Source of the DNA: Gordonia sp. (in: high G+C Gram-positive bacteria)
Lineage (GTDB): Bacteria > Actinomycetota > Actinomycetes > Mycobacteriales > Mycobacteriaceae
DNA: 45,822 nt
Assembly (NCBI RefSeq): GCF_012515855.1
Contig: NZ_JAAYXO010000227.1
Coordinates: 1 to 45,822 of the forward strand
Reading direction: 5' to 3'
How positions within the stretch are numbered: position 1 is the first letter of the stretch; every line of letters starts with the position of its first letter. The notes under the pieces were generated by a model. That model made no database searches. It had not been told where the DNA came from and worked only from the letters and a program-made list of their open reading frames with translations. Shown here piece after piece: positions 7,112 through 44,022 of this stretch. A program made the position numbers and the translations under genes.

Positions 7112-7933
7112 GTGGAGAAGACGGTACGAGGGACAACTGCACGGGTAGACGACAAGGTCGCACTGGTCACCGGTGCCGCCAGCGGCATGGGGCGAACGAA
7201 CTGCATTCGCCTGGCCGAGGCCGGTGCCGACGTGATCGCACTCGACCAGACGTCCGCGGCGGAGGCGCTCGCCGAGACCGCATCGCTGGTGGCTGACGCC
7301 GGTGGTCGGTGCATCACCGCGACGTGCGACGTCGTCGACGTCGAGGGAATGGCGGCGGCGGTCGACGCGGCGGTCGTGCAGGCCGGTCGCCTCGACATCG
7401 TCGTCGCCAACGCGGGCATCTATCCCGCGGCCGGATTCTCCTGGGAGCTGACCGACGCCGAGTGGCAGCGGCCGCTCGACATCAACGTCACCGGCGTGTG
7501 GGCCACGGTCAAGGCGACGCTGCCGCATCTTGAATCCGGCGCGTCGATCGTCATCATCAGCTCCACCAACGGACTCAAGGGCGGTGCGCGCGTCGCGCAC
7601 TACGCCGCGGGCAAGCACGCGGTGGTCGGACTCGCGCGCACCTTGGCCAATGAGGTCGGACCCCGCGGCATTCGCGTCAACACCGTGCATCCGGGTTCGG
7701 TTGCGACGCCGATGATCCTCAACGACGCGGTGTTCGCCAAACTACGCCCCGACCTCGAGCATCCCACACAGAACGACGCTGCCGAAGCCCTGGCGAAGCG
7801 GAATCTCCTCCCGGTTCCGTGGGTGCAGCCCGAGGACGTCAGCAATGCCGTCTTGTTTCTCGCCTCCGAGATGTCCCGCTATGTGACCGGCACCCAACTC
7901 GTGGTGGATGCCGGACTCCTACAGAAGGTGTGA
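7112..7933 (+). CDS. Short-chain dehydrogenase/reductase (possibly mycofactocin-coupled)
   Basis: A classical SDR of 273 residues, with the nucleotide-binding TGAASGMG motif near residue 21, NAG in VVANAGIYP, catalytic Ser in ISSTN and the YAAGK (YxxxK) pair. The segment between the cofactor motif and the NAG motif is longer than usual, as in SDRs often annotated as mycofactocin-coupled; I cannot prove that. The GTG start has no clear ribosome-binding site. It lies 8 bases before a paralogous SDR in the same direction. The position beside steroid genes suggests a hydroxysteroid dehydrogenase, an inference only. Confidence 0.82.
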   Translation: MEKTVRGTTARVDDKVALVTGAASGMGRTNCIRLAEAGADVIALDQTSAAEALAETASLVADAGGRCITATCDVVDVEGMAAAVDAAVVQAGRLDIVVANAGIYPAAGFSWELTDAEWQRPLDINVTGVWATVKATLPHLESGASIVIISSTNGLKGGARVAHYAAGKHAVVGLARTLANEVGPRGIRVNTVHPGSVATPMILNDAVFAKLRPDLEHPTQNDAAEALAKRNLLPVPWVQPEDVSNAVLFLASEMSRYVTGTQLVVDAGLLQKV

Positions 7934-7941
7934 AGAACCGA

Positions 7942-8790
7942 ATGACTGACTCCAACGCACGTCCCGGCCGCCTGTCCGGGAAGATCGCGTTCATCACCGG
8001 CGCCGCCCGCGGCATCGGTCGTGCGCAAGCCGTCCGCTTCGCCGAGGAGGGCGCCGACATCATCGGCGTCGACCTCTGCGGACCGGTCGAGACCGTGCTG
8101 ATCGACCCGGCCACCGAGGCCGACCTCGCCGAGACCGCCTCCGCGGTCCGCGCCGCCGGCGGCCGCTTCTCCGGGCACGTCGCCGATGTTCGCGACGGCG
8201 AGGCGCTGCGCGCTGCCGTCGCCGCGGGCGTCGAGGAACTCGGCGGACTCGACGTGGTCTGCGCGACTGCCGGGATCACCTCGCGAGGCCTGACCGAAGA
8301 GCTCTCGGACGAGGCCTGGAAGACGATGCTCGACGTGAACCTGACCGGTGTGTGGCAGACGGCGAAGGCGTCGATCCCGCATCTGCTCGAGCGGGGCGCC
8401 GGGTCGATCGTTCTGGTGAGCTCTATCGCGGGTCTGCGCGGCCTCTACGGCGTCTCGCACTACGTCGCTGCCAAGCACGGCGTGGTCGGCCTGATGCGCT
8501 CGCTGGCGCAGGAGATGGCGCCGCACGGAATCCGCGTCAACACCGTGCATCCCACCAATGTGAATACTCCGATGATCCAGAACGACGTGGTCCGCGGCGG
8601 CTTCCGCCCCGATCTCGAGACCGTCAGCCTGGAAGAGTTCGCCGTCGCAGCCAAGACGATGAACATGCTCGACCTCCCATGGGTGGAGCCCGAAGACGTC
8701 GCCAACGCGTCGCTGTTCCTCGCCTCCGACGAGGCCCGCTACATCACCGCGGTGACCCTGCCCGTCGATGCGGGATCAACCCAGCGCTGA
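7942..8790 (+). CDS. Short-chain dehydrogenase/reductase, mycofactocin-coupled type
   Basis: An SDR of 282 residues with TGAARGIGRAQA at the Rossmann start, NAD-preferring acidic residues after beta2 (GVDLCG), a roughly 15-residue insertion after that strand (typical of the mycofactocin-associated SDR group), LVSSIAG with the catalytic Ser, and YVAAK. It is about as long as the preceding gene's product and clearly its paralogue, so the pair probably arose by tandem duplication. ATG 7942 is 8 bases after the preceding stop, so the two form an operon ended by the hairpin at 8808. It may oxidise a steroid or other secondary alcohol; the substrate is not readable from sequence. Confidence 0.85.
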   Translation: MTDSNARPGRLSGKIAFITGAARGIGRAQAVRFAEEGADIIGVDLCGPVETVLIDPATEADLAETASAVRAAGGRFSGHVADVRDGEALRAAVAAGVEELGGLDVVCATAGITSRGLTEELSDEAWKTMLDVNLTGVWQTAKASIPHLLERGAGSIVLVSSIAGLRGLYGVSHYVAAKHGVVGLMRSLAQEMAPHGIRVNTVHPTNVNTPMIQNDVVRGGFRPDLETVSLEEFAVAAKTMNMLDLPWVEPEDVANASLFLASDEARYITAVTLPVDAGSTQR

Positions 8791-8807
8791 GTGCGACTCG
8801 TGCGGAG

Positions 8808-8856
8808 AAGTGATCGATCTGCGCCCTCACAGGGCGCAGATCGATCACTTTTCTTT
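8808..8856 (+). terminator. Strong terminator between convergent SDR and HsaD-like operons
   Basis: A perfect stem of about 20 bp (AAGTGATCGATCTGCGCCCT at 8808-8827, mate at 8831-8850) with a 3-base loop is followed by TTCTTTT on the plus strand. The U-tract favours termination of the SDR pair; the minus-strand operon ends on the other side at 8974. Confidence 0.9.
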
Positions 8857-8973: not shown

Positions 8974-9840
8974 TCAGGCTTCGAGGAGGAAGCTGATCAC
9001 GGTGCGCTCGAATGCGGCTTTGGCCTCGATCATCGCCCAGTGGCCGCAGTTCGGGAACACGTGCAGTTCGACGTCGGGGATGGTCCGCATCGGCACCAGC
9101 GCCATGTCGAGGGGGCTGACGCGGTCGTCTCGACCCCAGGTCAGCAGGGTCTTGGCCGACACCTTGTGCATCATGGCCCACTGCGGCGGGGTATCGGAGG
9201 CGTTCGATGCCTTGACCATCGCGGCGAAGGCGGCGCGACCGTACATGCGGCGCGCGCTCTCGATGGTGCCGGGCTCGGTAGCCAGGGCCCAGCGTTCCTC
9301 GATCAGTGCGTCGGTGACGACGGCCGGGTCCCACACCATCGAATGCAGCCAGCGGATCAGCGCCTCGCGGGTCGGCTCCTCGGTGAAGTCCTGCAGAAGC
9401 TTGATGCCCTCGCCCGGGCCCGGGCTGAAGATGTTGCGACCGATACCGCCGATGGTGACGAGTCTGCGGATGCGGCCGGGGTGCGCGATGTCGTAGCCGA
9501 TGCCCACGCCACCGCCCATCGAGTTGCCGATGACGTCGAAGGTGTCCAGTCCCAGCTTGTCGACGAACACCTCGAGGGCGCCGAGCGCGGTGATCATCGG
9601 ATGCCCGCCCCAGTCGTCGCTGACTCCGAAACCGGGGAACTCCAGAACCAGGCAGCGGAAGTGCTCGCCGAAGAGTCCGAGATTGCCGCGGAAGTTCCGC
9701 CAGCCGGAGACTCCCGGACCGGAACCATGAAGGAGCACCAGCGGCGGGCCGTCGCCGTACTCGTGGTAGCGCAGCACGCCGTTGTCGGTGGCGAGTTCGC
9801 GCAGCGTCTGGTCGTAGTCGGGGATGACAGAAGTGGTCAT
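8974..9840 (-). CDS. hsaD-like: Meta-cleavage product hydrolase, HsaD-like
   Basis: An alpha/beta-hydrolase of 288 residues. The oxyanion region HGSGPG is near residue 38, the nucleophile elbow GNSMGGG has Ser107, the acid is in WGRDDRV near 232 and the base in CGHW near 262. This is the fingerprint of C-C hydrolases acting on meta-cleavage products (BphD, HsaD). HsaD splits 4,9-DSHA, the product of HsaC, into DOHNAA and 2-hydroxyhexa-2,4-dienoate. The sequence is more distant from M. tuberculosis HsaD than the kstR or igr genes are from theirs, so a related ring-fission substrate is possible. ATG 9840 has AGGAGG about 5 bases upstream. Last gene of a seven-gene operon. Confidence 0.8.
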   Translation of the reverse strand: MTTSVIPDYDQTLRELATDNGVLRYHEYGDGPPLVLLHGSGPGVSGWRNFRGNLGLFGEHFRCLVLEFPGFGVSDDWGGHPMITALGALEVFVDKLGLDTFDVIGNSMGGGVGIGYDIAHPGRIRRLVTIGGIGRNIFSPGPGEGIKLLQDFTEEPTREALIRWLHSMVWDPAVVTDALIEERWALATEPGTIESARRMYGRAAFAAMVKASNASDTPPQWAMMHKVSAKTLLTWGRDDRVSPLDMALVPMRTIPDVELHVFPNCGHWAMIEAKAAFERTVISFLLEA

Positions 9841-9889
9841 GAGACCTCCTGGAAGCGGTGGGGACGGGGGACGGTGGGGCCGACGAGTG

Positions 9890-10147
9890 CTAGCCGATTC
9901 GGCCGGGAGTCGGCTCGACGCGGTAGGTGTCGGTCGGGACATTGCCGAGTCGGACCTGCTCGTCGATCGAGTCGCGCAGCTTGAGGCAGCTGGGAACGTG
10001 GTTCACGTCGGTGCCTTCGGCGGTCAGCCGGGCGAACTCAGGGCAGGCGGTGCGGGAGTCGTCGGTCCACTGCACACTCGTGTGCACCGGACTGAACTTC
10101 TCGACGAGAACGCGGTTGCTGCAGGTTCGGCAGGTCACGTCGTACAT
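9890..10147 (-). CDS. Small Cys-rich protein, possible zinc-binding fold
   Basis: The product has 85 residues. It opens with C6xxC9, then has His22, Cys35, His50 and Cys54, an arrangement that could bind Zn or another metal, and it ends in a polar tail. I do not recognise the family. ATG 10147 has TAGGAG upstream, the gaps to its neighbours are 25 and 49 bases, and codon use is like the neighbours, so it is a real gene in the KstD/KSI/HsaD-like operon. Its presence there suggests a role in steroid metabolism, perhaps as an accessory or electron-transfer protein, but no function is supported directly. Confidence 0.65.
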   Translation of the reverse strand: MYDVTCRTCSNRVLVEKFSPVHTSVQWTDDSRTACPEFARLTAEGTDVNHVPSCLKLRDSIDEQVRLGNVPTDTYRVEPTPGRIG

Positions 10148-10172
10148 GGTGGGTGGCTCCTAGGTTCTTTCG

Positions 10173-10832
10173 TCAGAGGATCGAGTGCGCGCGGGAGAGC
10201 GCAGGGACATCGAGTGCGGGGATGCCGAGCGCGGGCGCCTGGTCGGGGGAGAAGTCGCAGGCGACGTGGCACAGTCGCGCGATGCCGAGATTCTCAGGCA
10301 TCTCGGGGTCGAACCATCGGTCCACCAACCCCCAATGGACGGGATGGTTCATGTATTGCCCGCTGAGTGCTTCCCGCGTCCGGAACAGTTGTTCCCATAC
10401 GTGAGTGAATCGAGTCGGCCCGTGCGACGACTCCACATGGCTCAGACGCCACCAGACCATCGAGGTGATGTGTCGAGGCATCAGCAGCAGATCGCGTTCG
10501 AACCGGCAGCGCGCCTGGTCGGAGGCGTCGTCGCCGATACCGAGGAGCAGCGCTCGATAGACGAGGGCCTCGGTCGGATCGCCGCGGTGCCCGGTGGCAC
10601 CGGGTCGGTATCGGACGCTTTCGACAGACGCGAACCGCTCCCGCGACATCGCGGCGTCGACCGTGGTCGAGGGACCGTGAAGGAGCACATCGCCGCCGTT
10701 GATGGCGCCCGGCAACGTCCTGCCGATGACCCCGCCGGCCGGGCCGACCGCGACCCGCAGCGATTCGGCGAGGGCCGCCGGGTCGCGGTGCCGACCGGCG
10801 GTCAGGAGATGGGTGGACAGCAGGTCAGACAC
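10173..10832 (-). CDS. Dabb-fold (stress-responsive alpha/beta barrel) protein, two-domain
   Basis: A 219-residue protein. The C-terminal half carries the Dabb pattern: HITSMVWWRLS, then FTHVWEQLF and a well-conserved MNHPVHWGLVDRWFDPE stretch. The N-terminal half seems to be a degenerate copy of the same ferredoxin-like fold. The GTG start at 10832 overlaps the end of the upstream gene by 8 bases, implying translational coupling; the open frame extends to 11063 but only as an out-of-frame shadow of that gene. Dabb proteins include cyclases and dimeric stress proteins, so an enzymatic role on a steroid intermediate is possible but unproven. Confidence 0.7.
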   Translation of the reverse strand: MSDLLSTHLLTAGRHRDPAALAESLRVAVGPAGGVIGRTLPGAINGGDVLLHGPSTTVDAAMSRERFASVESVRYRPGATGHRGDPTEALVYRALLLGIGDDASDQARCRFERDLLLMPRHITSMVWWRLSHVESSHGPTRFTHVWEQLFRTREALSGQYMNHPVHWGLVDRWFDPEMPENLGIARLCHVACDFSPDQAPALGIPALDVPALSRAHSIL

Positions 10833-11196
10833 GTGCGAGCGCACCCAGTTCGGTGCCGTCGGCCGCCCACTCGCGCACGCGGTCGACGATGAGCGGTGCA
10901 ACACCCTCCCACCAGGCGGCCAGCGCGGAATCGTGCCTTCCTGCCCGGGCTGCGGCCCACCATCCGACGACATCGTCGACGGTGAGAATGGCGGTGATGG
11001 TGTTGGACTCGTCGTCGAGCCACAGCGGCGGATGCACCAGAATGGTCGCCACCCTGATGCCACGGGCCTCGGCCTTCGGCAGGTATTCGTCGCGGTAGAG
11101 GCGGAGAAAGTCTTCGCCCGCGCCCGGCGCGACGACGATCCGGTCGATCAAGTAGATCGGGTGGGCTGCGTCGCTGTCGTCGATCTCTTCGGTCAT
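10825..11196 (-). CDS. Small ferredoxin-like/Dabb or NIPSNAP-type protein
   Basis: A 123-residue protein (125 if GTG 11202 is used instead of ATG 11196). The pattern IYLIDRIVVAPGAGEDF, a Tyr-Leu-Pro helix and WWEGVAPLIVDRV resembles single-domain dimeric alpha/beta-barrel proteins such as NIPSNAP, EthD or Dabb members. It overlaps the next gene by 8 bases and follows the ketosteroid isomerase stop by 16, so it is firmly inside the steroid operon. Function is unknown. Together with its larger neighbour it may form a heteromer, since such folds usually pair; that is inference. Confidence 0.65.
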   Translation of the reverse strand: MTEEIDDSDAAHPIYLIDRIVVAPGAGEDFLRLYRDEYLPKAEARGIRVATILVHPPLWLDDESNTITAILTVDDVVGWWAAARAGRHDSALAAWWEGVAPLIVDRVREWAADGTELGALARV

Positions 11197-11212
11197 GTCC
11201 ACCGGGCCCGGG

Positions 11213-11578
11213 CTACTCGACGACCATGTCGGTGGGGGCCCAGAAAGCGCGCATCGACGTGATCTGACCGGCGTCGTCGAAGGTCATCACGTCGATCGGT
11301 TCGACGATGTAACTGGTGTCGCCCGCCTTGGTGACGACGCGAAACGAGAACGCCGCTTCGAGCCCCGAGACGCGGGCATGGAGGAGTTCGGTGGTGATCT
11401 CGCCCTGCAGCCCGCCGTAGAAGGCGCTGATGGCGTCGCGGCCGCGGTGCGGTTCCGAGCCCACCGGATCCTCGAGCGTCGCGTCGGCTGCGTACAGTGC
11501 GGCGACCGCGGCGCCGTCACCGGAGGCGACGGCCGCCAAGTAGTTCTCGATCACGGCTTTGATGTCGGGTGCGGTCAT
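11213..11578 (-). CDS. ksi: Steroid delta5-isomerase (3-ketosteroid isomerase)
   Basis: A 121-residue SnoaL/NTF2-fold enzyme that moves the C5-C6 double bond of 3-oxo-delta5-steroids to C4. It aligns over its whole length with the Comamonas/Pseudomonas enzyme as I recall it: ENYLAA (Tyr13), LEDPVGSEP (Asp37), FYGGL (Tyr54), EPIDVM (Asp96) and SMRAFW. Tyr13, Asp37 and Asp96 correspond to the catalytic Tyr14, Asp38 and Asp99. This makes it a true KSI and not merely a SnoaL-like protein. Placed right after two KstD-like genes, it would hand delta4-3-ketosteroids to delta1-dehydrogenation. The start ATG follows a purine-rich GAGGAG region. Confidence 0.9.
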   Translation of the reverse strand: MTAPDIKAVIENYLAAVASGDGAAVAALYAADATLEDPVGSEPHRGRDAISAFYGGLQGEITTELLHARVSGLEAAFSFRVVTKAGDTSYIVEPIDVMTFDDAGQITSMRAFWAPTDMVVE

Positions 11579-11644
11579 GCTGGTCTCCTCGAGTGGGTGG
11601 TGCGGGGTATCGCGTATGGGTACGGGAGGGGTTGAGGGCGGGCC

Positions 11645-13351
11645 TCAGCGGGTGGCCCGGCTGGCGGCCGCTGAGGCCCGAGACGGAGCGTCGGCGAGGT
11701 GGTTGACGGCCACGTAGCCGAAGGTCATGGCGGGGCCGATGGTGGCACCGGGGCCGGCGTACTCGTTGCCCATGACGGCGGCCGAAGTGTTGCCGGTGGC
11801 GTACAGACCGTCGATCACCGAGCCGTCGGCGCGCAGCACCTGGGCGTGCTCGTTGTAGACGAGACCGCCCTTGGTGCCGAGGTCGCCGACGCGCATCTGA
11901 AGGGCGTAGAACGGGCCCTGGTCGAGTGCGTCGAGGACGGGGTTCGGCAGCGTCGGGTCACCGTAGTAGCGGTCGTAGGCGCTGTCGCCGCGATTGAAGT
12001 CGTCGTCGTGCCCGCCCGCGGCCATGCCGTTGTAGCGGTCGACGGTGCCACGCAGCGCAGCGGGATCGACGCCGATCTGGGTCGCGAGCTCCTCGATCGT
12101 CGCCGCCGTGCGGATCAGGCCGGACGACATCCAGCTCTTCGGGAACTTCTGACCGGGCATCACGCCGCCGATCTGGTATCGCTTCTTGGCAAGCGCGTCG
12201 AAGATGAACCAGGTGGGTTCGTGACCGCCCGCGAGTTGGTCGTGGGTGAAGGTGACGTACGGCGAGGCCTCGTTGGTGAAACGCCGGCCGTGCTGGTCGA
12301 CGATGATCGCGCGCGGCACCGAGCGCTCCGAGACGAGCACCTGGTTGATGCCCTTCGGAGTTTGCAGCGATGGCATCCACCAGGCGTCGTCCATCAGCGA
12401 GACGGCCGCGCCGACGGCTTCGCCCGCACGGATGCCGTCGCCGGTGTTGCTGTCGGCGGCAGCGCTGAAGTTGGGGTGAGCGCCCTCGGGGAGGTAGCGG
12501 TTGCGCATCTCCTGGTTGAACTCGAAGCCGCCGCTGGCCATCACCACGCCGCGGGTGGCGCGGATGCGTCGGCTCTTTCCGCCGCGGGTCACCTCGACGC
12601 CGGTGACGGTGCCCGCGTCGTCGACGATCAGCGACTGCATCGGCGACGACAGCCAGAGCCGCGCGTCGGTGTCCTTGAGCGCGAGGCGAAGTCGGACGAT
12701 CAACGCTTGGCCGAGAGTCGCCATCTGCCTGCGCAGAACCACGGCCTGGACCGCGCGCAGCCCGGTCACGAACGCGGTGCGGCGTGCCTTCCAGGTCCGT
12801 GCGACCATGTTGAGCTGCACGAAGTCCTTCTGCGTGATGTACAGCCCGGGCGGGGTCGCGAGCGCTGCCGGCCGCAGCTGGGCCTGGTCGACGCCCAGCT
12901 TCTTGCTGTCGACGGGCTTCGGCTCGATGGACCGGCCGGCGGGCCGACCACCGGGGTTCTCCGGGTGGTAGTCGGCGTAACCGGTGCACCACTGGAAAGC
13001 GATGTGCGGGCTGCGCTCGAGGAGCTCGATCATCTTCGGCCCCTGCGCGATGTAGGCGTCGAGATTGGCCGACGGCACCTGGTCGCCGACGATCGAGTCG
13101 AGGTATGCGCGGACGTCGGCCGGTTCGTCGACGATGCCGATGCGCCGCAGTGCCGGGTTGTTCGGGACCCAGACGCCGCCGCCCGACAGAGCGGTGCTGC
13201 CGCCGTACACGTCGGCCTTCTCGACGATCAGGGCCTTCAGTCCGCGGTCGGCGGCGGTCAGCGCGGCGGTCATGCCGCCGGCACCGCTGCCGACGATGAC
13301 GACGTCGTATTCCTCATCCCACGTGTCGCGGGTGTTCTCCGGGGTGCTCAC
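11645..13351 (-). CDS. kstD-like: 3-ketosteroid delta1-dehydrogenase-like flavoprotein (KstD family)
   Basis: The product has 568 residues, the usual KstD size. The FAD-binding motif VVIVGSGAGGMTAA is near residue 18 and GGSTALSGGGVW follows. The KstD-type GYADYHPENPGG segment carries a candidate catalytic Tyr, and SIEPKP is conserved. NEASPYVTF and the C-terminal GNEYAGPGATIGPAMTFGY supply the later Tyr and Gly that bind the 3-keto group. It removes hydrogens from C1/C2 of 3-ketosteroids using FAD. It is closer to the KstD3 (Rv3537-like) type than to the KstD1 type of its upstream neighbour, so different steroids are probably handled. GTG start with AAAGGA upstream; 33 bases after the neighbour's stop. 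Confidence 0.85.
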   Translation of the reverse strand: MSTPENTRDTWDEEYDVVIVGSGAGGMTAALTAADRGLKALIVEKADVYGGSTALSGGGVWVPNNPALRRIGIVDEPADVRAYLDSIVGDQVPSANLDAYIAQGPKMIELLERSPHIAFQWCTGYADYHPENPGGRPAGRSIEPKPVDSKKLGVDQAQLRPAALATPPGLYITQKDFVQLNMVARTWKARRTAFVTGLRAVQAVVLRRQMATLGQALIVRLRLALKDTDARLWLSSPMQSLIVDDAGTVTGVEVTRGGKSRRIRATRGVVMASGGFEFNQEMRNRYLPEGAHPNFSAAADSNTGDGIRAGEAVGAAVSLMDDAWWMPSLQTPKGINQVLVSERSVPRAIIVDQHGRRFTNEASPYVTFTHDQLAGGHEPTWFIFDALAKKRYQIGGVMPGQKFPKSWMSSGLIRTAATIEELATQIGVDPAALRGTVDRYNGMAAGGHDDDFNRGDSAYDRYYGDPTLPNPVLDALDQGPFYALQMRVGDLGTKGGLVYNEHAQVLRADGSVIDGLYATGNTSAAVMGNEYAGPGATIGPAMTFGYVAVNHLADAPSRASAAASRATR

Positions 13352-13384
13352 TCGAGATTCCTTTGCGTGTTCTGGCGTTGGGGG

Positions 13385-14947
13385 TCAGGCGCGTGCGGCC
13401 AGGTCGCGGACGGCGAGGTGGCTGAACAGCATCGACGTGCCGATCGGATTGCCGCCGCCGGGGTAGGCCGTGCCGCTGGGCGCGGCCATGGTGTTGCCTG
13501 CGGCGTAGAGGCCGGGGATGGCGGTGCCGTCGGCGCGCAGGACGTTGCCCGCGACGTCGGTCTTGAGTCCGCCCTTGGTCCCGAGGTCGGAGACCCCGAA
13601 TGCCGCCGCGTGGAACGGTCCCTGATCGATGGTCACGAGGGGCGGCTCGCCGCCGGAGAACGCGCGGTCGTAGGCCTCGTCGCCGCGACCGAAGTCGGGG
13701 TCGACGCCGGTCGGGACCTGCTCGTTGAAGCGGGCGACCGTCGCGGCCAGGGCGTCGGCCGGGACGCCGATCTTCGCGGCGAGCTCCTCCAGGGTGTCGG
13801 CGGTGTGCCAGAGGCCCGCGTCGCGGTAGTCCTGCGTCGGGTAGAACTCGAAATTGGCGGCCTTGATCGGCGGGACCTCGCCCTCCTTGTCGTCGTAGAT
13901 CATCCAGAACGGGAGGGTCGCGGTGCCGTCGTCCACCTGGCGCAGGACGTCGCGCCCGAGGCGGTCGTAGGGTGCCGACTCGTTCACGAAACGCTTGCCG
14001 TCCTGGTTGACGAAGATGCCGCCGGTGAACCACAGGGCGAACGCCGAGCGGCCGTCCGGATGGGTGAGGCCCGGCGACCACCACGCCTGATCCATCAGGT
14101 CGACGTCGGCGCCCGCGTTGATGCCCGCGCGGTGCGCGAGGCCCTGGTTGGTGGCGGGGCCCATCGTGTCGCGGGCGACGCCGGGGACGCCGAACTCGGC
14201 GCGCATCGCGTCGTTGCCCTCGAATCCGCCACTGGCCAGCAGTACCCCGCGGCGGGCGCGGATCGCCTCACGCTTGCCGTCGACCTCGATGATCGCGCCG
14301 ACCACGGCGCCGTCGTCGATCACCAGATCCACCAGCGGGCTGCCCAGTTGCGTCGTCGCGTTGTCGTAGGCGGCGATGGCCTTGAGGAACCGGGCGATCA
14401 GCGCCCGGCCGCCGATGTACATGTCGTTGGGGGTGTCGGCACCGTGTCGGTCGACGTCGAGTGGTCCGCGGACCAGATCCTTGTACTCCGGAGCGTCGGC
14501 CACGGGCAGGGGGTTCGGCATGGTGTGCCGCATGCCGTCGAGCTTGGCCTTGGGGGCCTTGCCGTAGTAGTCGGGCCAGGGGAGCGGGACGAACTCGAGG
14601 TTTGCGTCGGTCTCCAGGTACTCGATCAGCGGGGCGCCGCCGCGGACGTAGGTCTCCTGCAGTTCCACCGGGGTGCGGTCGCCGACCACGGCCCGGTAGT
14701 AGGTGAGGGCGTCGTCGACGGAGTCCTCCGCGCCTGCCCGCAGCAGGGCGGGGTTGCAGGGGAACCACATGCCGCCGCCGCCCGAGTAGGCGGTGGTGCC
14801 GCCGAACTTGTCGGACGCCTCCACCATCAGCACGGAGAGACCCTCGCGTGCCGCGGTGTAGGTCCCGGTGACGCCGCCGGCGCCTGACCCGGCGACGATC
14901 ACGTCGTATTCGCGGGTCCATTCGGGGGTGGTGGCAGTCATCGGCAT
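13385..14947 (-). CDS. kstD1: 3-ketosteroid delta1-dehydrogenase, KstD1 type
   Basis: The product has 520 residues. It matches the Rhodococcus KstD1 pattern I recall nearly throughout: VAGSGAGGVTG FAD motif, FGGTTAYSGGGG, PWPDYYGKAPKA, DQAWWSPGLTHPDGRSAF, NESAPYDRLGRDV (second Tyr) and SGTAYPGGGNPIG, which holds the C-terminal Tyr and Gly of the active site. It introduces the 1,2 double bond needed, with 9-alpha-hydroxylation, to break the B ring. I chose ATG 14947 because a GGACGGAG site precedes it; ATG 14941 is an alternative. It is the first gene of the operon and faces the Baeyer-Villiger monooxygenase across a 222-base divergent promoter region. Confidence 0.9.
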   Translation of the reverse strand: MPMTATTPEWTREYDVIVAGSGAGGVTGTYTAAREGLSVLMVEASDKFGGTTAYSGGGGMWFPCNPALLRAGAEDSVDDALTYYRAVVGDRTPVELQETYVRGGAPLIEYLETDANLEFVPLPWPDYYGKAPKAKLDGMRHTMPNPLPVADAPEYKDLVRGPLDVDRHGADTPNDMYIGGRALIARFLKAIAAYDNATTQLGSPLVDLVIDDGAVVGAIIEVDGKREAIRARRGVLLASGGFEGNDAMRAEFGVPGVARDTMGPATNQGLAHRAGINAGADVDLMDQAWWSPGLTHPDGRSAFALWFTGGIFVNQDGKRFVNESAPYDRLGRDVLRQVDDGTATLPFWMIYDDKEGEVPPIKAANFEFYPTQDYRDAGLWHTADTLEELAAKIGVPADALAATVARFNEQVPTGVDPDFGRGDEAYDRAFSGGEPPLVTIDQGPFHAAAFGVSDLGTKGGLKTDVAGNVLRADGTAIPGLYAAGNTMAAPSGTAYPGGGNPIGTSMLFSHLAVRDLAARA

Positions 14948-15046
14948 TCGCTCCGTCCGGGATCCCCGCGGCGTAGGGCACGGGGGTTGATCGTCATGCA
15001 AGGCCCCTCGACCGTAGGGGTGCAGAGTCGTTCGACGGGGGCGATG

Positions 15047-15085
15047 TCCCGCTCATCGGGACGTGCCGGTGAGCGGGAACGTGCC
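15047..15085. promoter_or_regulatory. Inverted and direct repeats in the kstD1 / STMO divergent promoter
   Basis: TCCCGCTCA (15047-15055) and TGAGCGGGA (15070-15078) form a 9-bp inverted repeat with a 14-base spacer. Interleaved are two direct repeats, CGGGACGTGCC (15057-15067) and CGGGAACGTGCC (15074-15085). No KstR-type box is visible here. Likely operator(s) for divergent control; regulator unknown. Confidence 0.5.
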
Positions 15086-15169
15086 TGGTCCGCGGCGGTA
15101 TGCGCTCCCTAGGGTCGGGGTATCAGGTCAATGCTGTCGAGAACCTCGGCAGCGAGAGAAAGGCACATC

Positions 15170-16810
15170 GTGACCGAACGAACGGAGACATCGCCCCAGC
15201 GGACAGACGTTCCGGCACCGCTGGACGCCGTGGTGGTCGGCGCGGGTTTCGCAGGCATCTACTCCCTCTACCGGCTCCGCAAGGACGGACTCTCGGTCCG
15301 TGTGTTCGAGGCGGCCGAGGGCGTGGGCGGCGTCTGGTACTGGAACCGCTACCCGGGGGCGCGCTGTGACGTCGAGAGCGTCGACTACTCGTTCTCGTTC
15401 GACGACGACCTTCAGCAGGAGTGGAACTGGCGCGAGAAGTACGCCACCCAACCGGAGATCCTCGAGTACATGGAACACGTCGTCGAGCGGTTCGATCTCG
15501 CGCGCGACATCACCTTGAACACGCGCGTCACCGACATCCTGTTCGACGAGGACAGCCTGCTGTGGACGGTCACCACCGACACCGGTGAGGCCGTCCGCGC
15601 GCGCTTCGTGGTGCTGGGCCTGGGGCCGCTCTCGAACTCCAACATCCCGAACATCCCCGGGATCGGAGACTTCGCCGGACCGCTGCTCCACACCGGCCAG
15701 TGGCCGCACGAACCGGTCGACTTCACCGGTCAGCGTGTCGGCGTCATCGGCACCGGGTCGTCGGGCATCCAGTCGATTCCCGAGATCGCGAAGCAGGCAC
15801 GACAGCTCACGGTGTTCCAGCGGTCGCCCAACTTCTCCGTTCCGGCGGGCAACCGCGACCTCACCGACGACGACCGCGCCGAGCAGAAGGCCGGCTACGC
15901 CGAGCGTCGCCGGTTGTCGTTCCTGAGCGGCGGCGGGTCACCGCACCAACCGCATCCGCACGGCGCCCTCGAGGTGTCCGACGACGAGCGGCGAGCGGTG
16001 TACGAGGAGTGGTGGCAGAAGGGCGGGGTGCTGTTCAGCAAGGCCTTCCCCGATCAGTTCACCAGCGTCGAGGCCAACGACACCGCCCGCGAGTTCTGGG
16101 TTCAGAAGGTCCGCGCCAAGATCGACGACCCCGCCATCGCAGAGCAGCTGATCCCCACCGACCACCCGATCGGTACCAAGCGGATCTGCACCGACTCCGG
16201 CTACTTCGAGACCTACAACCGCGAGAACGTGGAGCTGGTCAACCTGCGCAAGGCGCCGATCGAGCGGATCGACGCCACCGGCGTGGTGACCGCCGACGGT
16301 CGTCATCACGACCTCGACGCGCTGGTCCTGGCCACCGGGTACGACGCCATGACCGGCTCGGTGAAGAAGATCAACATCGTCGGGCGTGGCGGTCGAACGC
16401 TCAACGACGAGTGGGCCGCAGGTGCCCGCACCTATCTGGGACTGGGGCTGGAGGGATTCCCGAACCTGTTCAACCTCACCGGACCCGGCAGCCCGTCCGT
16501 CCTGGCCAACATGGTCCTGCACTCGGAACTGCATGTCGACTGGGTCGCCGATGCGATCGCCGAGCTACAGGCCCGCGGCGCGTCGGTGATGGAGCCGACC
16601 AACGCGGCGGTCGAAGGCTGGGTCGAGGAGTGCCGGACCCGCGCCGAGTCCTCGCTGATGAGCATGGCCGACTCCTGGTACGTCGGCGCGAACATCGCCG
16701 GCCGCCCCCGGGTGTTCATGCCCTTCCTCGGCGGCCTCGGCGCCTATGGCGAGATCATCGGCAAGGTAGCCGCCGACGGCTACCCCGGCTTCGAGTTCAC
16801 CGCGAGCTGA
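15170..16810 (+). CDS. Baeyer-Villiger monooxygenase, steroid monooxygenase (STMO) type
   Basis: A 546-residue FAD/NADPH flavoprotein. GAGFAG near residue 24 binds FAD, the BVMO fingerprint FAGPLLHTGQWP lies near 165-185, and GTGSSGIQ is the NADPH motif. The sequence follows my memory of Rhodococcus rhodochrous steroid monooxygenase closely (for example WYWNRYPGARCDVES, SGGGSPH, FNLTGPGSPSVLANM and RPRVFMPFLGG). That enzyme inserts oxygen between C17 and C20 of progesterone, giving testosterone acetate. GTG 15170 is preferred for its GAGAGAAAGG site; the frame opens earlier at 15131. Divergent from the KstD1/KSI operon. No dedicated esterase gene is adjacent; the nearest HSL esterase is at 1217. 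Confidence 0.88.
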   Translation: MTERTETSPQRTDVPAPLDAVVVGAGFAGIYSLYRLRKDGLSVRVFEAAEGVGGVWYWNRYPGARCDVESVDYSFSFDDDLQQEWNWREKYATQPEILEYMEHVVERFDLARDITLNTRVTDILFDEDSLLWTVTTDTGEAVRARFVVLGLGPLSNSNIPNIPGIGDFAGPLLHTGQWPHEPVDFTGQRVGVIGTGSSGIQSIPEIAKQARQLTVFQRSPNFSVPAGNRDLTDDDRAEQKAGYAERRRLSFLSGGGSPHQPHPHGALEVSDDERRAVYEEWWQKGGVLFSKAFPDQFTSVEANDTAREFWVQKVRAKIDDPAIAEQLIPTDHPIGTKRICTDSGYFETYNRENVELVNLRKAPIERIDATGVVTADGRHHDLDALVLATGYDAMTGSVKKINIVGRGGRTLNDEWAAGARTYLGLGLEGFPNLFNLTGPGSPSVLANMVLHSELHVDWVADAIAELQARGASVMEPTNAAVEGWVEECRTRAESSLMSMADSWYVGANIAGRPRVFMPFLGGLGAYGEIIGKVAADGYPGFEFTAS

Positions 16811-16847
16811 TCAGGAAGCGGCTTCAGCCTGGGGCGACGGTGTTCCA

Positions 16848-17278
16848 GCGCTCGTAAGTGCACTCGACCGCCCTGCGGGTCAGCCTGCGTTTGTGGGTGC
16901 GGCCCTTGCAGGGTGGTCGAGTGCCGCGTCGTATCGAGGCTGGCGTGTGTGGTGGTGTCGGCGATCTCGATACGCGACAGTGCTCGCTGCGCTCGCAGGT
17001 CGCACTCGATCAGCGTGAGGGGCGATGGTGTACATGCGCTCGTAAGTCGCGCTCGACCGCCCTGCGGGTCAGCCTGCGTTTGTGGGTGCGGCCCGTTGCA
17101 GGGTGGTCGAGTGCCGCGTGTGAGCGGAGCGAATCCGCGGTCGTATCGAGGCCGGGGTGTGTCCGGGTGGTGTCGGCGATCTCGATACGCGACAGTGCTC
17201 GCTGCGCTCGCAGGTCGCACTCGATCATCGGGGGGCGACGGTGTGCATGCGCTCGTAGATCGCACTCGACCGCCCTGG
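16848..17278. repeat. Tandem array of ~190-210 bp intergenic repeats (2 full copies and a partial third)
   Basis: This gene-free stretch (16811-17319) is mostly repeats. Copy 1 spans 16848-17035, copy 2 17036-17248, and a partial third 17249-17277, each opening with GCGCTCGTA. Copy 2 is about 25 bases longer because of an inserted GAGCGGAGCGAATCCGC hairpin segment near 17120-17140. Each full copy contains a 17-bp near-perfect hairpin (GCACTCGACCGCCCTGC at 16860-16876 against 16908-16924) and a second block, CGATCTCGATACGCGACAG with CTCGCTGCGCTCG. The second block resembles REP-type palindromic elements scattered through actinobacterial genomes. Open frames across the array are repetitive and not protein-like. 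No coding gene is visible here. Confidence 0.85.
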
Positions 17279-17319
17279 GGTGCCGACCCGCGAGCGGCGA
17301 GCTCCGTGGGGCGGGCAGG

Positions 17320-17805
17320 TCAGCTGAAGTTGCCGAAGCCGCCGCGGTAGAAGAGGAGGGGGCCGTGGTCGGCGGCGTGGACGTCGAGCCCGGTGACCCG
17401 GCAGACGACGATCGTGTGGTCCCCGGCATCGTGCTCGGCTTCGACCGTCGCTTCGACGTGAGCCAGGGCCTCGTGGATGAAGGGGGCGCCGTTGCTGGCG
17501 GGGCTGTGGGCGACGCCGGCGAACTTGTCGGTGCCCGACTTCGAGAACTGACGGCACAACTCGCCCTGCGGGCCGGCGAGGACGTTGATGCAGACGGTTC
17601 CGCTGCTGCGCAGCCGCGGCCAGCTGGACGACGACTTGGCCGGGCAGAAGGCGATCAGGGGCGGCTCCAACGACACGGAGACCACCGACTGGCAGGTGAG
17701 GCCCACGGGCTCGTCACCGTCGTTCGCGGTGATGATGGCGACGCCGGTGGCGAAGTGTCCCATGACCTCGCGGAGGTCGGCGGACGAGATCTGAGAAGTG
17801 GGCAC
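17320..17805 (-). CDS. hsaB: Flavin reductase HsaB, small component of the HsaAB monooxygenase
   Basis: A 161-residue flavin reductase-like (FMN-binding split-barrel) protein that supplies reduced flavin to HsaA. Family features: MGHFATGVAIITA at the N-terminus, VGLTCQSVVSVSLEPPLIAFCP, and LLFYRGGFGNF at the C-terminus, corresponding to LLFYRGDY of M. tuberculosis HsaB. It is shorter than that protein because the C-terminal extension is absent. GTG 17805 is the likeliest start, with GAAGG upstream; the frame stays open to 17865. It follows the IclR regulator by 66 bases and lies apart from hsaA, from which it is separated by hsaC and the regulator. Confidence 0.87.
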   Translation of the reverse strand: MPTSQISSADLREVMGHFATGVAIITANDGDEPVGLTCQSVVSVSLEPPLIAFCPAKSSSSWPRLRSSGTVCINVLAGPQGELCRQFSKSGTDKFAGVAHSPASNGAPFIHEALAHVEATVEAEHDAGDHTIVVCRVTGLDVHAADHGPLLFYRGGFGNFS

Positions 17806-17871
17806 GACGGTGGAACCTTCTGCAGTGAAACGGGGATCGGGCCGGGCGGGGAGGAGAGTCGACACGGGCGG

Positions 17872-18705
17872 TCAGCCGGCGACGGGCAAGTGCTGCCGGC
17901 TGATCATCGGTCGGCGCTGCTGCAGCGTCGGGGTGATCCGGAGGTCGGATCCACCCGCATTGCGCCACGCGCCGAGCGCGGCCATCCGGAGCGGTGCGGC
18001 GAGCCGGTTGTCGAACTTCATCTGATCCACCGGACCGCAGATCGATATGGCGGCGGTGGCTTCGCCGGGCTCGCCGATCGGGACGGCGATGCATCCGAAA
18101 CGCGGGACCGCTTCTTCGCGCTCGACGGCGACGCCGCGATCGCGGACCGAGTCCAGTTCCTTCGACAGCTGGGTGGTGGACGCGATCGAGAAACGAGTCT
18201 TCCGCTCGAGGCGCTGGGTGCCTGCGTGACCCGGACCGGCCTGGTTCGGGTCCGACTGGCCCTGGTCGGCGTGGGCCAGCAGGACCTTGCCGATGGCGGT
18301 GCAATGCGCGGGCTGCTTGCCGCCCACGCGCGTCGGCAGTGCCTTGCCCAGGTTCTCGCCGACCTTCTCCAGGTAGACGACGTCGTTGTCCTGCAGTACC
18401 CCCAGGTGGACGACGAAGCCGGTCATCCGGTGCAGTTCGTGCAGGAACGGGAGCGCTGCGGCGTGCAGACGGTCCTGGTGGATCGCGAGGGATCCCAGCT
18501 CCACCAGGCGCATGCCGAGTTCGTACTCGCGGCCGTCGCGGCGCAGCCAGCGCAGGGCGACGAGGCGCTCGAGCATGCGGTGGGCCGACGACCGCGGCAG
18601 GCCGGTGCGATGAACGATCTCGGCCAGAGTCTGCCGGGCGTGACCGTCGAAGGCGTCGAGGACGAGTGTCAGGCGATCGATGACGGCGGTGGGGGTTTCA
18701 GTCAC
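17872..18705 (-). CDS. IclR-family transcriptional regulator
   Basis: A 277-residue regulator. The N-terminal winged helix-turn-helix (about residues 10-60) reads LAEIVHRTGLPRSSAHRMLERL, and the C-terminal IclR effector domain contains GKVLLA and a GCIAVPIGEP segment. I use GTG 18705 because AGGAG lies 10 bases upstream; ATG 18726 lacks one. It heads a two-gene unit with hsaB and sits beside hsaC-hsaA-kshA, so it is a good candidate to control ring-degradation genes in response to a steroid metabolite. A perfect inverted repeat 89 bases upstream of its start is a possible autoregulatory site. Confidence 0.85.
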   Translation of the reverse strand: MTETPTAVIDRLTLVLDAFDGHARQTLAEIVHRTGLPRSSAHRMLERLVALRWLRRDGREYELGMRLVELGSLAIHQDRLHAAALPFLHELHRMTGFVVHLGVLQDNDVVYLEKVGENLGKALPTRVGGKQPAHCTAIGKVLLAHADQGQSDPNQAGPGHAGTQRLERKTRFSIASTTQLSKELDSVRDRGVAVEREEAVPRFGCIAVPIGEPGEATAAISICGPVDQMKFDNRLAAPLRMAALGAWRNAGGSDLRITPTLQQRRPMISRQHLPVAG

Positions 18706-18793
18706 GGATTCTTCACTCCTGTGCATGGGCTGATGCGTTGGAACGGATGCTGCGGATCGGAAAGCTGCAGATCGAAAAGCCTCTGAACACGCT

Positions 18794-18874: not shown

Positions 18875-18906
18875 AAAACGCCGCGTCCCAAGGGACGCGG
18901 CGTTTT
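18875..18906 (-). terminator. Terminator of the kshA-hsaA-hsaC operon
   Basis: A perfect 15-bp stem, AAAACGCCGCGTCCC (18875-18889) with its mate at 18892-18906, has a 2-base loop and ends in T runs on either strand. It lies 25 bases beyond the hsaC stop. Confidence 0.88.
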
Positions 18907-18930: not shown

Positions 18931-19836
18931 CTACATGGCGGCGAGTGGCTCGCTGCCCGACCAGTCGTGGCCCCAGTAGCTGTCTGCGGTGATCTCCTCG
19001 GAGGTGTAGTGCGCCTCGTCGACCCGCATGCCGTGGCATCCGAACTCGATGTCCCAGCCGCCGGGTGCACGGACGTAGAACGAGACCATCTTGTCGTTGG
19101 TGTGGCGACCCAGCGTCGACGACACCGAGAACCCGTCCTTCACGACGCGATCGAGGGCCTGACCGACGGCGTCGAGCGTGTCGACCTCGACCATGATGTG
19201 GATCAGCCCGGGGGCGCCGCCGTGCGGGGCCGGGCACAGGGCCAAGCTGTGGTGGCGCTCGTTGATGCCCATGAACCGAATGCGGATGGGACCGAACTCC
19301 GGCGGTGCCGGGATCCGCATCGCGCCGCGCGGAACGAACCCGAGGACGTTCTGATAGAAGTCGAACGAGCCGTTCAGGTCCATCACCGGAAGGACCACGT
19401 GGCCGAGGCCCTGGTCGCCGGTGACGAACTTCGCGCCGAACGGCGTCACGATCGGGCTGTGGTCGAGGATGGGGCCGTGGAAGATCTCGAGCGTCGCGCC
19501 TGCCGGGTCCACAAAGGTGAAGCCCGCTTCGATGCGACGGGCGTCGGCCTCGTCGTTGGTGAGGTCGGTGACCTCGACGCCGGCCGCGGAGACGGTCTCG
19601 CGGACGCGGGCCAGGGCGGCGCCGTCGCGGACCTCCCAGCCGATGGTCACGATCTCGTCGGTGTCGCCCGCGACGACGGTGATACGTGCGGCGCGCTCGT
19701 CCATGCGCAGGTACAGCGCGTCTTCGTCGGGGCCGGAGCCCTTGGCGAACCCGAGGACGTCGAACGCGAAGGTGCGCCAGCGGTCGATGTCGTTGGTCTG
19801 GATCTTGACGTAGCCGAGGCTCTTGATGTCAGCCAT
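18931..19836 (-). CDS. hsaC: Extradiol dioxygenase HsaC (3,4-DHSA 4,5-dioxygenase type)
   Basis: A 301-residue type I extradiol dioxygenase with two VOC-type domains. The Fe(II) ligands are readable: His146 in GLGHVVL, His213 in LIHIMVEV and Glu264 in WDIEFG. A candidate catalytic His lies in ERHHSLAL (195/196) and a Tyr in SFYVRAPGG. HsaC cleaves the catecholic A ring of 3,4-DHSA to 4,9-DSHA, the substrate of HsaD. Similarity to M. tuberculosis HsaC runs over the full length (SLGYV, YLRMD, FHGP, TLGRH-ND, WGHD) but is only moderate, so a paralogous steroid pathway is possible. The gene follows hsaA by 36 bases and ends before a strong terminator. Confidence 0.88.
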   Translation of the reverse strand: MADIKSLGYVKIQTNDIDRWRTFAFDVLGFAKGSGPDEDALYLRMDERAARITVVAGDTDEIVTIGWEVRDGAALARVRETVSAAGVEVTDLTNDEADARRIEAGFTFVDPAGATLEIFHGPILDHSPIVTPFGAKFVTGDQGLGHVVLPVMDLNGSFDFYQNVLGFVPRGAMRIPAPPEFGPIRIRFMGINERHHSLALCPAPHGGAPGLIHIMVEVDTLDAVGQALDRVVKDGFSVSSTLGRHTNDKMVSFYVRAPGGWDIEFGCHGMRVDEAHYTSEEITADSYWGHDWSGSEPLAAM

Positions 19837-19872: not shown

Positions 19873-21054
19873 TCAGATCATCGAGGTGAGGTTCGGCGGA
19901 ACCTCGAAGCCCATCGAGGAGAGTGCGGAGGCGTGCCACGGGGTGCTCGGCGTGTGGATGGCGTGGTTGAGGCCCGCGTGGGCGTCGCGCCAGAAGCGCT
20001 GCAGCGGCTTGTCCATGCGCAGTGCGTTGCCGCCCGAGCGGGCGAAGATCTGGTCGACCGCCATCACCGCGCGCCAGGCAGCGCGGATCTGGGTGCGTCG
20101 GCCTGCGGCGCGCCGATCGAAGGAGATCTCCTTGCCCGCGTCGACGAGGTCGTAGATCTCGTCGATGTTGGCGAGCAGTTCCTGACGTGCGGCGTTGATG
20201 TCCGCGGCGGCCTCGCCGATGGCGAACAGCGTGTACGGATCGTCCTTGATGGCGGTGCCCTGGGCGCCGATGCGGTCGCGCTGGTAATCCAGGTGGCAGG
20301 CGAGAGCGCCCTCGGCGATGCCCAGCACCGCGGAGGTGATGCCCAGCGGGAACATCGCCGACCACGGCATCTTGAAGAGCGTCTTGCTCATGCCGGCCTC
20401 GGCCTGCGCGGTGCCGTCGATCACGTGGTCGCCGTTCATCACTCGGTACGAGGGGACGAAGGCGTCCTTGACGATGATGTCCTTGGAGCCGGTGCCCTTG
20501 AGGCCGACGACGTTCCACGAGTCCTCGACGATCGTGTAGTCGCTGCGCGGCAGGATCATGTGCAGCATGGTCGGAGGCAGCGCCATCTCGCCCTCGGGGG
20601 TGCCGAGCATGGCGCCGAGGAAGATCCAGTCGCAGTGATCGGTGCCGGAGCTGAACTGCCAGCGGCCGTTGAAGATGTAGCCGCCGTCGACCGGACGGGC
20701 GATGCCGGTGGGTGCGTACGGCGACGCGATCCAGGTGTTGTCGTCCTCGCCCCACACCTCCTCCTGCACCTTCGGGTCGGCGAAGGCCATCTGCCACGGG
20801 TGGACGCCGACGATGCCGCACACCCAGCCGGTGGCGCCGTCGAGGCTGGCGGCCTTCATCACGGTCTCGGCGAACTCACGCGGATGGGCTTCGAGGCCGC
20901 CGTAGTTCTCCGGCGCCAGGAGCTTCATGACGCCGGTGGACTTGAGCTGCTTGGCGGTGGCGTCGGGCAGCTGGCCGAGGTCTTCGGCTTCCTGCGCCTG
21001 GCCGCTGATCTGGTCGGCGAGCTCGGCGATCGCGTCGATGGGTCGAATGGTCAT
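19873..21054 (-). CDS. hsaA: Flavin-dependent monooxygenase HsaA (3-HSA hydroxylase oxygenase)
   Basis: A 393-residue member of the acyl-CoA-dehydrogenase-fold group D flavin monooxygenases. Matching features to HsaA as I recall it: EDLGQLPDATAKQLK, GATGWVCGIVGVHPW, VWGEDDNTWIASPYAP, FSSGTDH, VVGLKGTGSKDIIVKDAFVP, MPWSAMFPL, and FWRDAHAGLNHA near the C-terminus. It hydroxylates the phenolic A ring of 3-HSA to the catechol 3,4-DHSA, using flavin reduced by HsaB. It follows kshA by 49 bases and precedes hsaC in the same operon. ATG 21054 is the only sensible start. Confidence 0.9.
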   Translation of the reverse strand: MTIRPIDAIAELADQISGQAQEAEDLGQLPDATAKQLKSTGVMKLLAPENYGGLEAHPREFAETVMKAASLDGATGWVCGIVGVHPWQMAFADPKVQEEVWGEDDNTWIASPYAPTGIARPVDGGYIFNGRWQFSSGTDHCDWIFLGAMLGTPEGEMALPPTMLHMILPRSDYTIVEDSWNVVGLKGTGSKDIIVKDAFVPSYRVMNGDHVIDGTAQAEAGMSKTLFKMPWSAMFPLGITSAVLGIAEGALACHLDYQRDRIGAQGTAIKDDPYTLFAIGEAAADINAARQELLANIDEIYDLVDAGKEISFDRRAAGRRTQIRAAWRAVMAVDQIFARSGGNALRMDKPLQRFWRDAHAGLNHAIHTPSTPWHASALSSMGFEVPPNLTSMI

Positions 21055-22411: not shown

Positions 22412-22466
22412 CACAAAAAACTTCGGCGTTCGACGGGCTGTGAGCCCGCTTCGAACGCCGAAGTTT
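22412..22466 (-). terminator. Terminator of kstR
   Basis: A 16-bp stem (AAACTTCGGCGTTCGA at 22418-22433 against 22451-22466) encloses an inner 6-bp stem (CGGGCT/AGCCCG, 22434-22448). The run of six A at 22415-22420 gives a U tract on the minus strand just after the kstR stop at 22481. Confidence 0.9.
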
Positions 22467-23143: not shown

Positions 23144-23222
23144 AGAAATTCGTCTCCTCATCGCCTTGTGTCCACCGACTCCCGGTTGGCAGTCGCCCTC
23201 CGATGGTGTACACCCAATGAAT

Positions 23223-25446: not shown

Positions 25447-25538
25447 GTCGGTATTGCCTAAAATTCAGGCCGAAACCGCGACTGAAGTCCCTGGACACCG
25501 CTACTTTGTGACTGCGGTCTCGGTCGGTCTGATACAAA

Positions 25539-25552
25539 TAGAACACGTTCTA
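25539..25552 (+). promoter_or_regulatory. KstR operator upstream of the chsE1-ltp2-fadD operon
   Basis: TAGAACACGTTCTA matches TnnAACnnGTTnnA perfectly and is fully palindromic. It ends 23 bases before the chsE1 GTG start. Confidence 0.9.
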
Positions 25553-25575
25553 ATTTCTGCTTGAGGAGGAACCGG

Positions 25576-27824: not shown

Positions 27825-27832
27825 GGAAGCAG

Positions 27833-30449: not shown

Positions 30450-30493
30450 CCACCACTCCGACTTTGTCGGTCCTCGCAAGGAGATCTAGAAAG

Positions 30494-42284: not shown

Positions 42285-42287
42285 GGG

Positions 42288-43982: not shown

Positions 43983-44022
43983 GATTTCCCTTCGGCTCGG
44001 CGTTGAACGCTTCGCGCAAAAA

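Follow-up and report, generated by a model that had tools for sequence, protein, structure and literature searches.

A probable 20-ketosteroid gene cluster in Gordonia with a conserved Dabb protein pair co-inherited with an STMO-type monooxygenase

The stretch of DNA analysed here (the window) comprises 45,822 nt of Gordonia sp. GCF_012515855.1 (contig NZ_JAAYXO010000227.1, positions 1-45,822). Seven genes lie on its minus strand at 8974-14947 and diverge from a gene on the opposite strand that encodes a Baeyer-Villiger monooxygenase (BVMO) of the STMO type; all eight are open reading frames. As described in the initial annotation, the gaps within the run range from -8 (Dabb1/Dabb2) to 66 bases (KstDb/KSI). 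A gene pick based on coding composition selected seven of the eight genes. Dabb2 alone was passed over, because its frame continues upstream (10173-11063), and it was accepted as a real gene because homologues exist. For KstDa, a TTG at 15001 falls upstream of the chosen ATG at 14947. The features of this core are the following.

8974-9840, minus strand: HsaD2, HsaD-like meta-cleavage product hydrolase (profile match).
9890-10147, minus strand: Cys-rich protein of 85 residues with four invariant cysteines, from a family found beside KshA.
10173-10832, minus strand: Dabb2, double Dabb-domain protein; GTG start, 8-nt overlap with the end of Dabb1.
10825-11202 (or from an ATG at 11196), minus strand: Dabb1, small NIPSNAP/Dabb-like partner of Dabb2 (model fold, homologues).
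11213-11578, minus strand: KSI, delta5-3-ketosteroid isomerase (1ocv, 78 bits; catalytic positions aligned).
11645-13351, minus strand: KstDb, a further homologue of 3-ketosteroid dehydrogenases (closest to 7p18 at 401 bits, with the catalytic positions conserved).
13385-14947, minus strand: KstDa, KstD1-type 3-ketosteroid delta1-dehydrogenase, first gene of the run; ATG start (PRK12837, 912 bits with a cut-off of 675; 4c3x, 439 bits).
15047-15078, no strand: candidate operator, a sequence motif with two TCCCGSTSAYCGG sites in the divergent KstDa/BVMO promoter.
15170-16810, plus strand: STMO-type BVMO, probably starting at GTG 15170, with the FAGPLLHTGQWP motif.

The enzymes first proposed for this core were an STMO-type BVMO, a true KSI, a kstD1-type and a second kstD-like gene, and a meta-cleavage hydrolase. 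All were upheld, the last as HsaD-like though under the HsaD equivalog cut-off. The solved structure closest to the BVMO is the STMO of R. rhodochrous (4aos), with which it aligns nearly end to end at 856 bits, as compared with 601 bits for phenylacetone monooxygenase (PAMO) and 513 bits for CHMO. The BVMO fingerprint FxGxxxHxxxW is present in its translation as FAGPLLHTGQWP. Judged from sequence, the enzyme is predicted to be of the STMO type and to convert progesterone to testosterone acetate. The best solved relatives of KSI are the SnoaL-like 6p3l and the Comamonas enzyme 1ocv. Its Y13, D37 and D96 align with Y14, D38 and D99 of the latter, which we take to be the catalytic Tyr14, Asp38 and Asp99. 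KstDa was aligned over nearly its full length with 4c3x, presumably the KstD of R. erythropolis SQ1, and KstDb was closest to 7p18. In both proteins the catalytic Tyr/Tyr/Tyr/Gly positions, read off the alignments, are kept; we assume these to be Tyr119, Tyr318, Tyr487 and Gly491 of SQ1 KstD1.

The novel element of the locus is the pair Dabb1-Dabb2, which is co-inherited with the progesterone-type BVMO. Two Dabb-fold proteins had been claimed. This holds for Dabb2, which exceeds the gathering score of PF07876 (27.2 vs 25 bits), whereas the Pfam scan gave no match for Dabb1 and its score stayed below the Dabb threshold; the Dabb1 portion of a modelled natural Dabb1-Dabb2 fusion shows a NIPSNAP-like fold. 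The modelled Dabb fold resembles heme Dabbs, oxygenases and isomerases. The pair was analysed in the best 80 of 364 loci (47 actinobacterial and 33 proteobacterial), and in 71 of these 80 the two genes overlap by exactly 8 nt. Natural fusions of the two proteins were found as well (P0069-P0072), and the last Dabb domain of Dabb2 contains many invariant polar residues. Overlap, fusions and conservation are consistent with one heteromeric, probably enzymatic unit. A joint alignment, in which Dabb1 came to lie against the last domain of Dabb2, was discarded.

Co-inheritance was scored in 298 genomes of the order, a match of at least 59% being counted as an STMO-type BVMO; the BVMO survey scored the four best candidates per genome and the Dabb2 survey up to ten, and weaker copies may escape. 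Dabb2 was found in 29 genomes, the BVMO in 31 and both in 28 (Fisher 8e-35), and within the family of the window the Dabb2 by BVMO table reads 28/0/3/24 for 55 genomes (Fisher 1e-12); because the genomes share ancestry, both values overstate independence and are descriptive. Physical linkage was equally close, since for 27 of the 30 Dabb2 copies a BVMO of this kind is at most 25 kb away (with a match of at least 59% in 26 cases and of 56% in one, G253), the three others being both copies of G289 and that of G250. As an internal control, Dabb2 is present in one of the 24 genomes whose listed BVMO reaches only 50-56%. Five genomes of the same genus are in the sample, and only that of the window has either gene, which suggests acquisition by transfer.

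The initial annotation had drawn the module as the seven genes and the BVMO. These genes stand, but the extent was too narrow, as KshA2-HsaA2-HsaC2, IclR-HsaB2, two short-chain dehydrogenases/reductases (SDRs) and an esterase also belong to it. To the right of the BVMO follow HsaB2, IclR, HsaC2, HsaA2 and KshA2, then KstR; to the left of the run lie the two SDRs and further out the esterase Abh3.

1217-2158, plus strand: Abh3, hormone-sensitive-lipase-type esterase, candidate steryl-acetate esterase; its relatives follow an STMO-type BVMO elsewhere.
7112-7933, plus strand: SDR1, mycofactocin-coupled SDR type (307 bits, cut-off 300).
7930-8790, plus strand: SDR2, mycofactocin-coupled SDR type (375 bits, cut-off 300).
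8805-8853, plus strand: hairpin with 23-nt arms between SDR2 and the convergent seven-gene run; terminator score on the plus strand only.
17320-17865, minus strand: HsaB2, flavin reductase (182 bits, cut-off 230).
17872-18726, minus strand: IclR-family regulator, conserved with the cluster (profile match and neighbourhoods).
18931-19836, minus strand: HsaC2, extradiol dioxygenase (profile match).
19873-21054, minus strand: HsaA2, flavin-dependent hydroxylase oxygenase (407 bits, cut-off 450).
21104-22255, minus strand: KshA2, Rieske 9alpha-hydroxylase oxygenase; start picked by eye, the open reading frame extending to 22300.
22481-23161, minus strand: KstR, border to the cholesterol cluster and outside the module (331 bits, cut-off 280).

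KshA2 has a KshA_C domain (301 bits) and a Rieske centre. HsaA2, HsaB2, HsaC2 (359 of 450 bits) and HsaD2 (261 of 400 bits) all miss the NCBIfam Hsa equivalog cut-offs and are by sequence Hsa-like only; Abh3 likewise scores below the LipP1 hormone-sensitive lipase equivalog cut-off (327.5 of 350 bits). The one other KshA of the genome is on contig C55, beside HsaA and HsaC of 42-45% identity, and this contig ends within HsaC. A second HsaD-like hydrolase, 58% identical to HsaD2, is encoded at G000:C188:13176-14018 (L002, L043), and none of the other steroid genes queried was found in the 13 kb read around it. Beyond KstR, at 23275-32116, lie cholesterol side-chain genes: a fused acyl-CoA dehydrogenase (ACAD), two further ACADs, ChsH1/H2-like, Ltp2-like and FadD, named by family. 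Inclusion of these CoA genes in the module was unsupported, as they lie beyond kstR and match canonical-cluster genes.

The neighbourhoods of the pair were read about 10 kb to each side (roughly 20 kb, some loci being clipped by contig ends), which showed that it is linked to STMO-type BVMO and ring-cleavage genes in many other bacteria. Among the 47 actinobacterial loci an STMO-type BVMO was present in 27, the esterase in 25 and IclR (at least 50%) in 38; KshA2 occurred in 20, HsaA2 in 22, HsaC2 in 27, HsaD2 in 22 and the Cys-rich family in 17. At least one ring gene of the KshA2/HsaA2/HsaC2/HsaD2 group was found in 37 loci, and a ring gene, BVMO or esterase in 42. Where the BVMO is present, the esterase follows immediately in 15 of 27 loci. 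The order KSI-Dabb-Dabb-Cys-rich, for which conservation had been expected, was seen in none of the 47, and KSI and the Cys-rich gene occur together with the pair in only five. Nearly the same arrangement of BVMO, KstDa, KSI, KstDb and Cys-rich protein as in the window was found in L046, L047, L073 and L116. The pair lies within the same 20 kb in L046, L073 and L116, and L047 belongs to genome G060, where Dabb2 is 6 kb from the BVMO. Outside the order, about 14 kb separate the pair from a BVMO of 64% on a Streptomyces plasmid.

In the Proteobacteria KshA is enriched among genomes with the pair. At E<=1e-40, KshA was present in 21 of the 33 proteobacterial genomes with the pair, as compared with 9 of 147 Sphingomonadales genomes, or 8 of 146 without G298 (7e-13). 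This background is unmatched, since Rhodospirillales and other groups are represented among the 33, and several of these genomes look closely related to each other. The pair itself occurs in one of the 147 (G298, with KshA 8.7 kb from Dabb2); this is too few for a co-occurrence test, hence the comparison by KshA.

The divergent promoter region between KstDa and the BVMO measures 222 bp (14948-15169). It holds two TCCCGSTSAYCGG sites, and the window has no other exact match to the motif; with one mismatch allowed there are 6 sites where 1.8 are expected. As the motif was derived from the window, L046, L047, L073 and L116, counts there are circular. In the 47 loci 29 sites were found, 19 of them in stretches preceding cluster genes, where 5.1 would be expected, with 4 of the 19 from L073 and L116. 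In the six window-like loci L044-L049 all 8 sites are upstream against 1.4 expected (4 of these being the sites of L046 and L047 from which the motif was defined). For the 13 loci of the other type the figure is 3 of 7, with 1.1 expected. A single site was seen in the 33 proteobacterial loci, and it is not upstream of a cluster gene. Sites precede BVMO, KstDa, KshA2, HsaA2 and KSI, and in L070 and L081 also Dabb1, at a distance of about 50 bp. IclR is the natural candidate for the motif-binding protein. A promoter scan gave no sigma-70-like site, and a terminator scan gave 3 hits, all in three registers of the plus-strand hairpin at 8805-8853, against 4.5 expected from shuffles. The region between BVMO and HsaB2 (16831-17280) is rich in inverted repeats and also contains direct repeats, up to 98% alike and spaced by about 190-215 nt. 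Perfect inverted repeats at 18875-18906 (HsaC2/IclR) and 22418-22466 (KshA2/KstR) are perhaps terminators, and are absent from the hits of the scan.

The Cys-rich protein had been counted among three proteins of unknown role in the module; it is not special to it. Relatives occur in 99 of the 298 genomes, with C6, C9, C35 and C54 invariant across the 24 rows of the alignment, and Rv3527 of M. tuberculosis may, we assume, be another. Around family members outside the window 19 loci were compared: the gene stands directly after KshA in all 13 loci of the other type (L042, L050-L061), which rules out that it is specific to this system, and not directly after KshA in the remaining six, window-like ones (L044-L049). 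Its predicted structure (predicted local distance difference test score 80) had no PDB match at E<=0.001. The simplest guess is that it works with KshA. In the accessible part of PMC6429209, Rv3527 is listed merely as hypothetical. At 41424-44030 the window has a third KstD (KstDc) and a MaoC protein, and the same pair is near KshA and a Cys-rich gene in two relatives of the same genus (L051, L052).

The locus had been put forward as a candidate for an undescribed system, and this was not sustained: pRHL1 of RHA1 carries a relative, and a cluster of kstD and KSI had appeared in print by 1995. The pRHL1 cluster, which we take to be steroid cluster 4, also has KshA, HsaA, HsaC, HsaB, HsaD, KSI, Cys-rich protein, IclR, KstD and Dabb1-Dabb2, and an STMO-type BVMO (61%) followed directly by Abh3 (62%); it differs in gene order and in further SDR and hydrolase genes. 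The window thus corresponds to a second cluster of the pRHL1 type by content (KshA/HsaA/HsaC, the Dabb pair and a BVMO with esterase) and not by order. With this relative in RHA1, the cluster type is not new; it is an ordinary second steroid cluster. The KstDa relative of pRHL1 (L009:30499-31833) aligns only piecewise and in more than one frame, which may reflect a broken gene or an error in the sequence. An Arthrobacter simplex cluster, reportedly with KstD, KSI and a regulator (Molnar 1995, by its title), joins KstD and KSI as in the window; the title names no BVMO or Dabb. The C-19+ cluster of M. smegmatis is presumably MSMEG_2851-2901. It is likewise a second ring cluster, with kstD, kshA and kshB, and the accessible parts of PMC5962712 and PMC5270728 describe it for C19 steroids. 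Within RHA1, kshA4 is ro09003 (PMC4064121, in its accessible text).

The pdc cluster of Caenibius tardaugens (accessible text of PMC12239570) resembles the window in having a BVMO for progesterone, with an induced Dabb gene elsewhere in that genome. Compared by description, it differs in that BVMO and LLM stand with TetR and LuxR regulators and no ring genes. There, progesterone as opposed to testosterone raises a cluster of hypothetical protein, Dabb and NADP-oxidoreductase 9-, 15- and 11-fold; the main text, as accessible, mentions it once, without follow-up. In R138 Dabb1 is annotated 'hypothetical protein' next to Dabb2 as 'Dabb family protein', the same pattern, and by this analogy the induced two genes are perhaps Dabb1-Dabb2. 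Apart from that study, the accessible portions of the open-access literature gave no further relevant paper joining Dabb to steroid degradation; 'dabb' in PMC6498646 is the name of an author.

Taken together, we consider the locus, with a probability of roughly 60%, to be a second cluster for catabolism of the steroid nucleus, serving C21 20-ketosteroids (progesterone or pregnenolone, for example), the substrate being suggested by the STMO-type BVMO. A catabolic module for 20-ketosteroids or other C21/C19 steroids had been proposed at the outset; a steroid module whose BVMO points to 20-ketosteroids remains, with more genes than then assigned. In such a pathway the SDRs and KSI would form the delta4-3-ketone and KstDa/KstDb would introduce the delta1 double bond. 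The BVMO would convert the 17-acetyl side chain to a 17-acetate ester, Abh3 would cleave off the acetate and an SDR would oxidise the 17-alcohol. Opening and cleavage of rings A and B would fall to KshA2, HsaA2/HsaB2, HsaC2 and HsaD2. The Dabb1-Dabb2 unit would be required at a 20-ketosteroid-specific step, at or near the Baeyer-Villiger step, and may account for a missing step. The seven-gene run and the BVMO would be transcribed divergently from the one region that bears the operator.

Several observations weigh against this reading, beside the shared ancestry of the genomes. The co-inheritance has exceptions, with an STMO-type BVMO and no Dabb2 in G207, G226 and G281, and Dabb2 with a sole BVMO match of 56% in G253. 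KSI is near the pair in just 7 of the 47 actinobacterial loci, and in the window 13 kb separate Abh3 and the BVMO. On a Burkholderia plasmid neither a BVMO nor a ring gene lies within 12 kb of the pair. On an R. qingshengii plasmid (L145) an STMO-type BVMO (62%) stands beside KshA, a mycofactocin-coupled SDR and CoA genes, and the Dabb pair is absent within 12 kb. Ring genes are sparse in the 10 kb to either side of the pair in the 33 proteobacterial loci, where SDRs and weaker matches to the esterase prevail, and 12 of these genomes are without KshA at E<=1e-40. The Dabb of C. tardaugens was not found by name among the best 80 of 364 loci and 120 of 1077 proteins, so that its likeness is one of description. 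HsaC2 passes the NCBIfam biphenyl-2,3-diol dioxygenase model (393 over 366) and fails that of HsaC, which together with the scores of all four Hsa-like proteins indicates a diverged second ring-cleavage set. The RHA1 KstD ro09040 is expressed and not raised by cholesterol or 7-ketocholesterol (PMC5348764, accessible text), which fits a non-sterol substrate without showing one. Finally, the ring genes would suit every 3-ketosteroid, C19 steroids included, and the substrate in this organism is predicted from sequence.

The alternative that survives best, though we regard it as unlikely, is a general C19 androgen cluster like C-19+ of M. smegmatis, a described precedent, in which the BVMO would be accessory: ring genes are independent of the side chain, but the near one-to-one co-inheritance of BVMO and Dabb pair would be superfluous for a side-chain-free pathway, and androstenedione is not lactonised by the R. 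rhodochrous STMO (PMC12239570, accessible text). Poorer still are the chances that Dabb1 and Dabb2 are stress or heme-binding proteins that hitchhike with the cluster and have no catabolic role. Pfam labels the Dabb family stress responsive and the fold is similar to those of heme Dabbs, oxygenases and isomerases alike, but co-inheritance with the BVMO, the invariant polar residues of the last Dabb domain, the shared motif ahead of Dabb1 in L070 and L081 and the enrichment of KshA in a second phylum argue for a catabolic role. Many BVMOs are promiscuous. It is just as improbable that the BVMO acts on a non-C20 ketone (D ring or secosteroid fragment) in a cluster for bile-acid-like or other modified steroids, for although the pRHL1 cluster is called most similar to cholate genes and of unclear function in the accessible part of PMC4810484, the closest solved enzyme is STMO (856 vs 601 bits for PAMO) and the side-chain CoA genes of the window lie beyond kstR and match canonical clusters.

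Building on a 20-ketosteroid cluster, a more far-reaching proposal is offered tentatively, at somewhat less than even odds: that Dabb1 and Dabb2 are the two subunits of an undescribed enzyme of 20-ketosteroid catabolism that needs no cofactor, is conserved in bacteria ranging from Sphingomonadaceae to Actinobacteria, with the 8-nt gene overlap fixed, and takes as substrate progesterone-type compounds or the Baeyer-Villiger esters of these, and that orphan rhodococcal clusters such as that of pRHL1 are progesterone/pregnane clusters. Some Rhodococcus steroid clusters are described as of unknown function (PMC4810484, in its accessible text), and the linkage of STMO, esterase and Dabb gives them a substrate prediction. 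Abh3 is a candidate for the steryl-acetate hydrolase, the pathway esterase that the accessible text of PMC12239570 calls unknown. The Dabb pair is a conserved gene pair in a pathway that would be of practical weight because progesterone is a common pollutant of soil and water (PMC12239570, same text).

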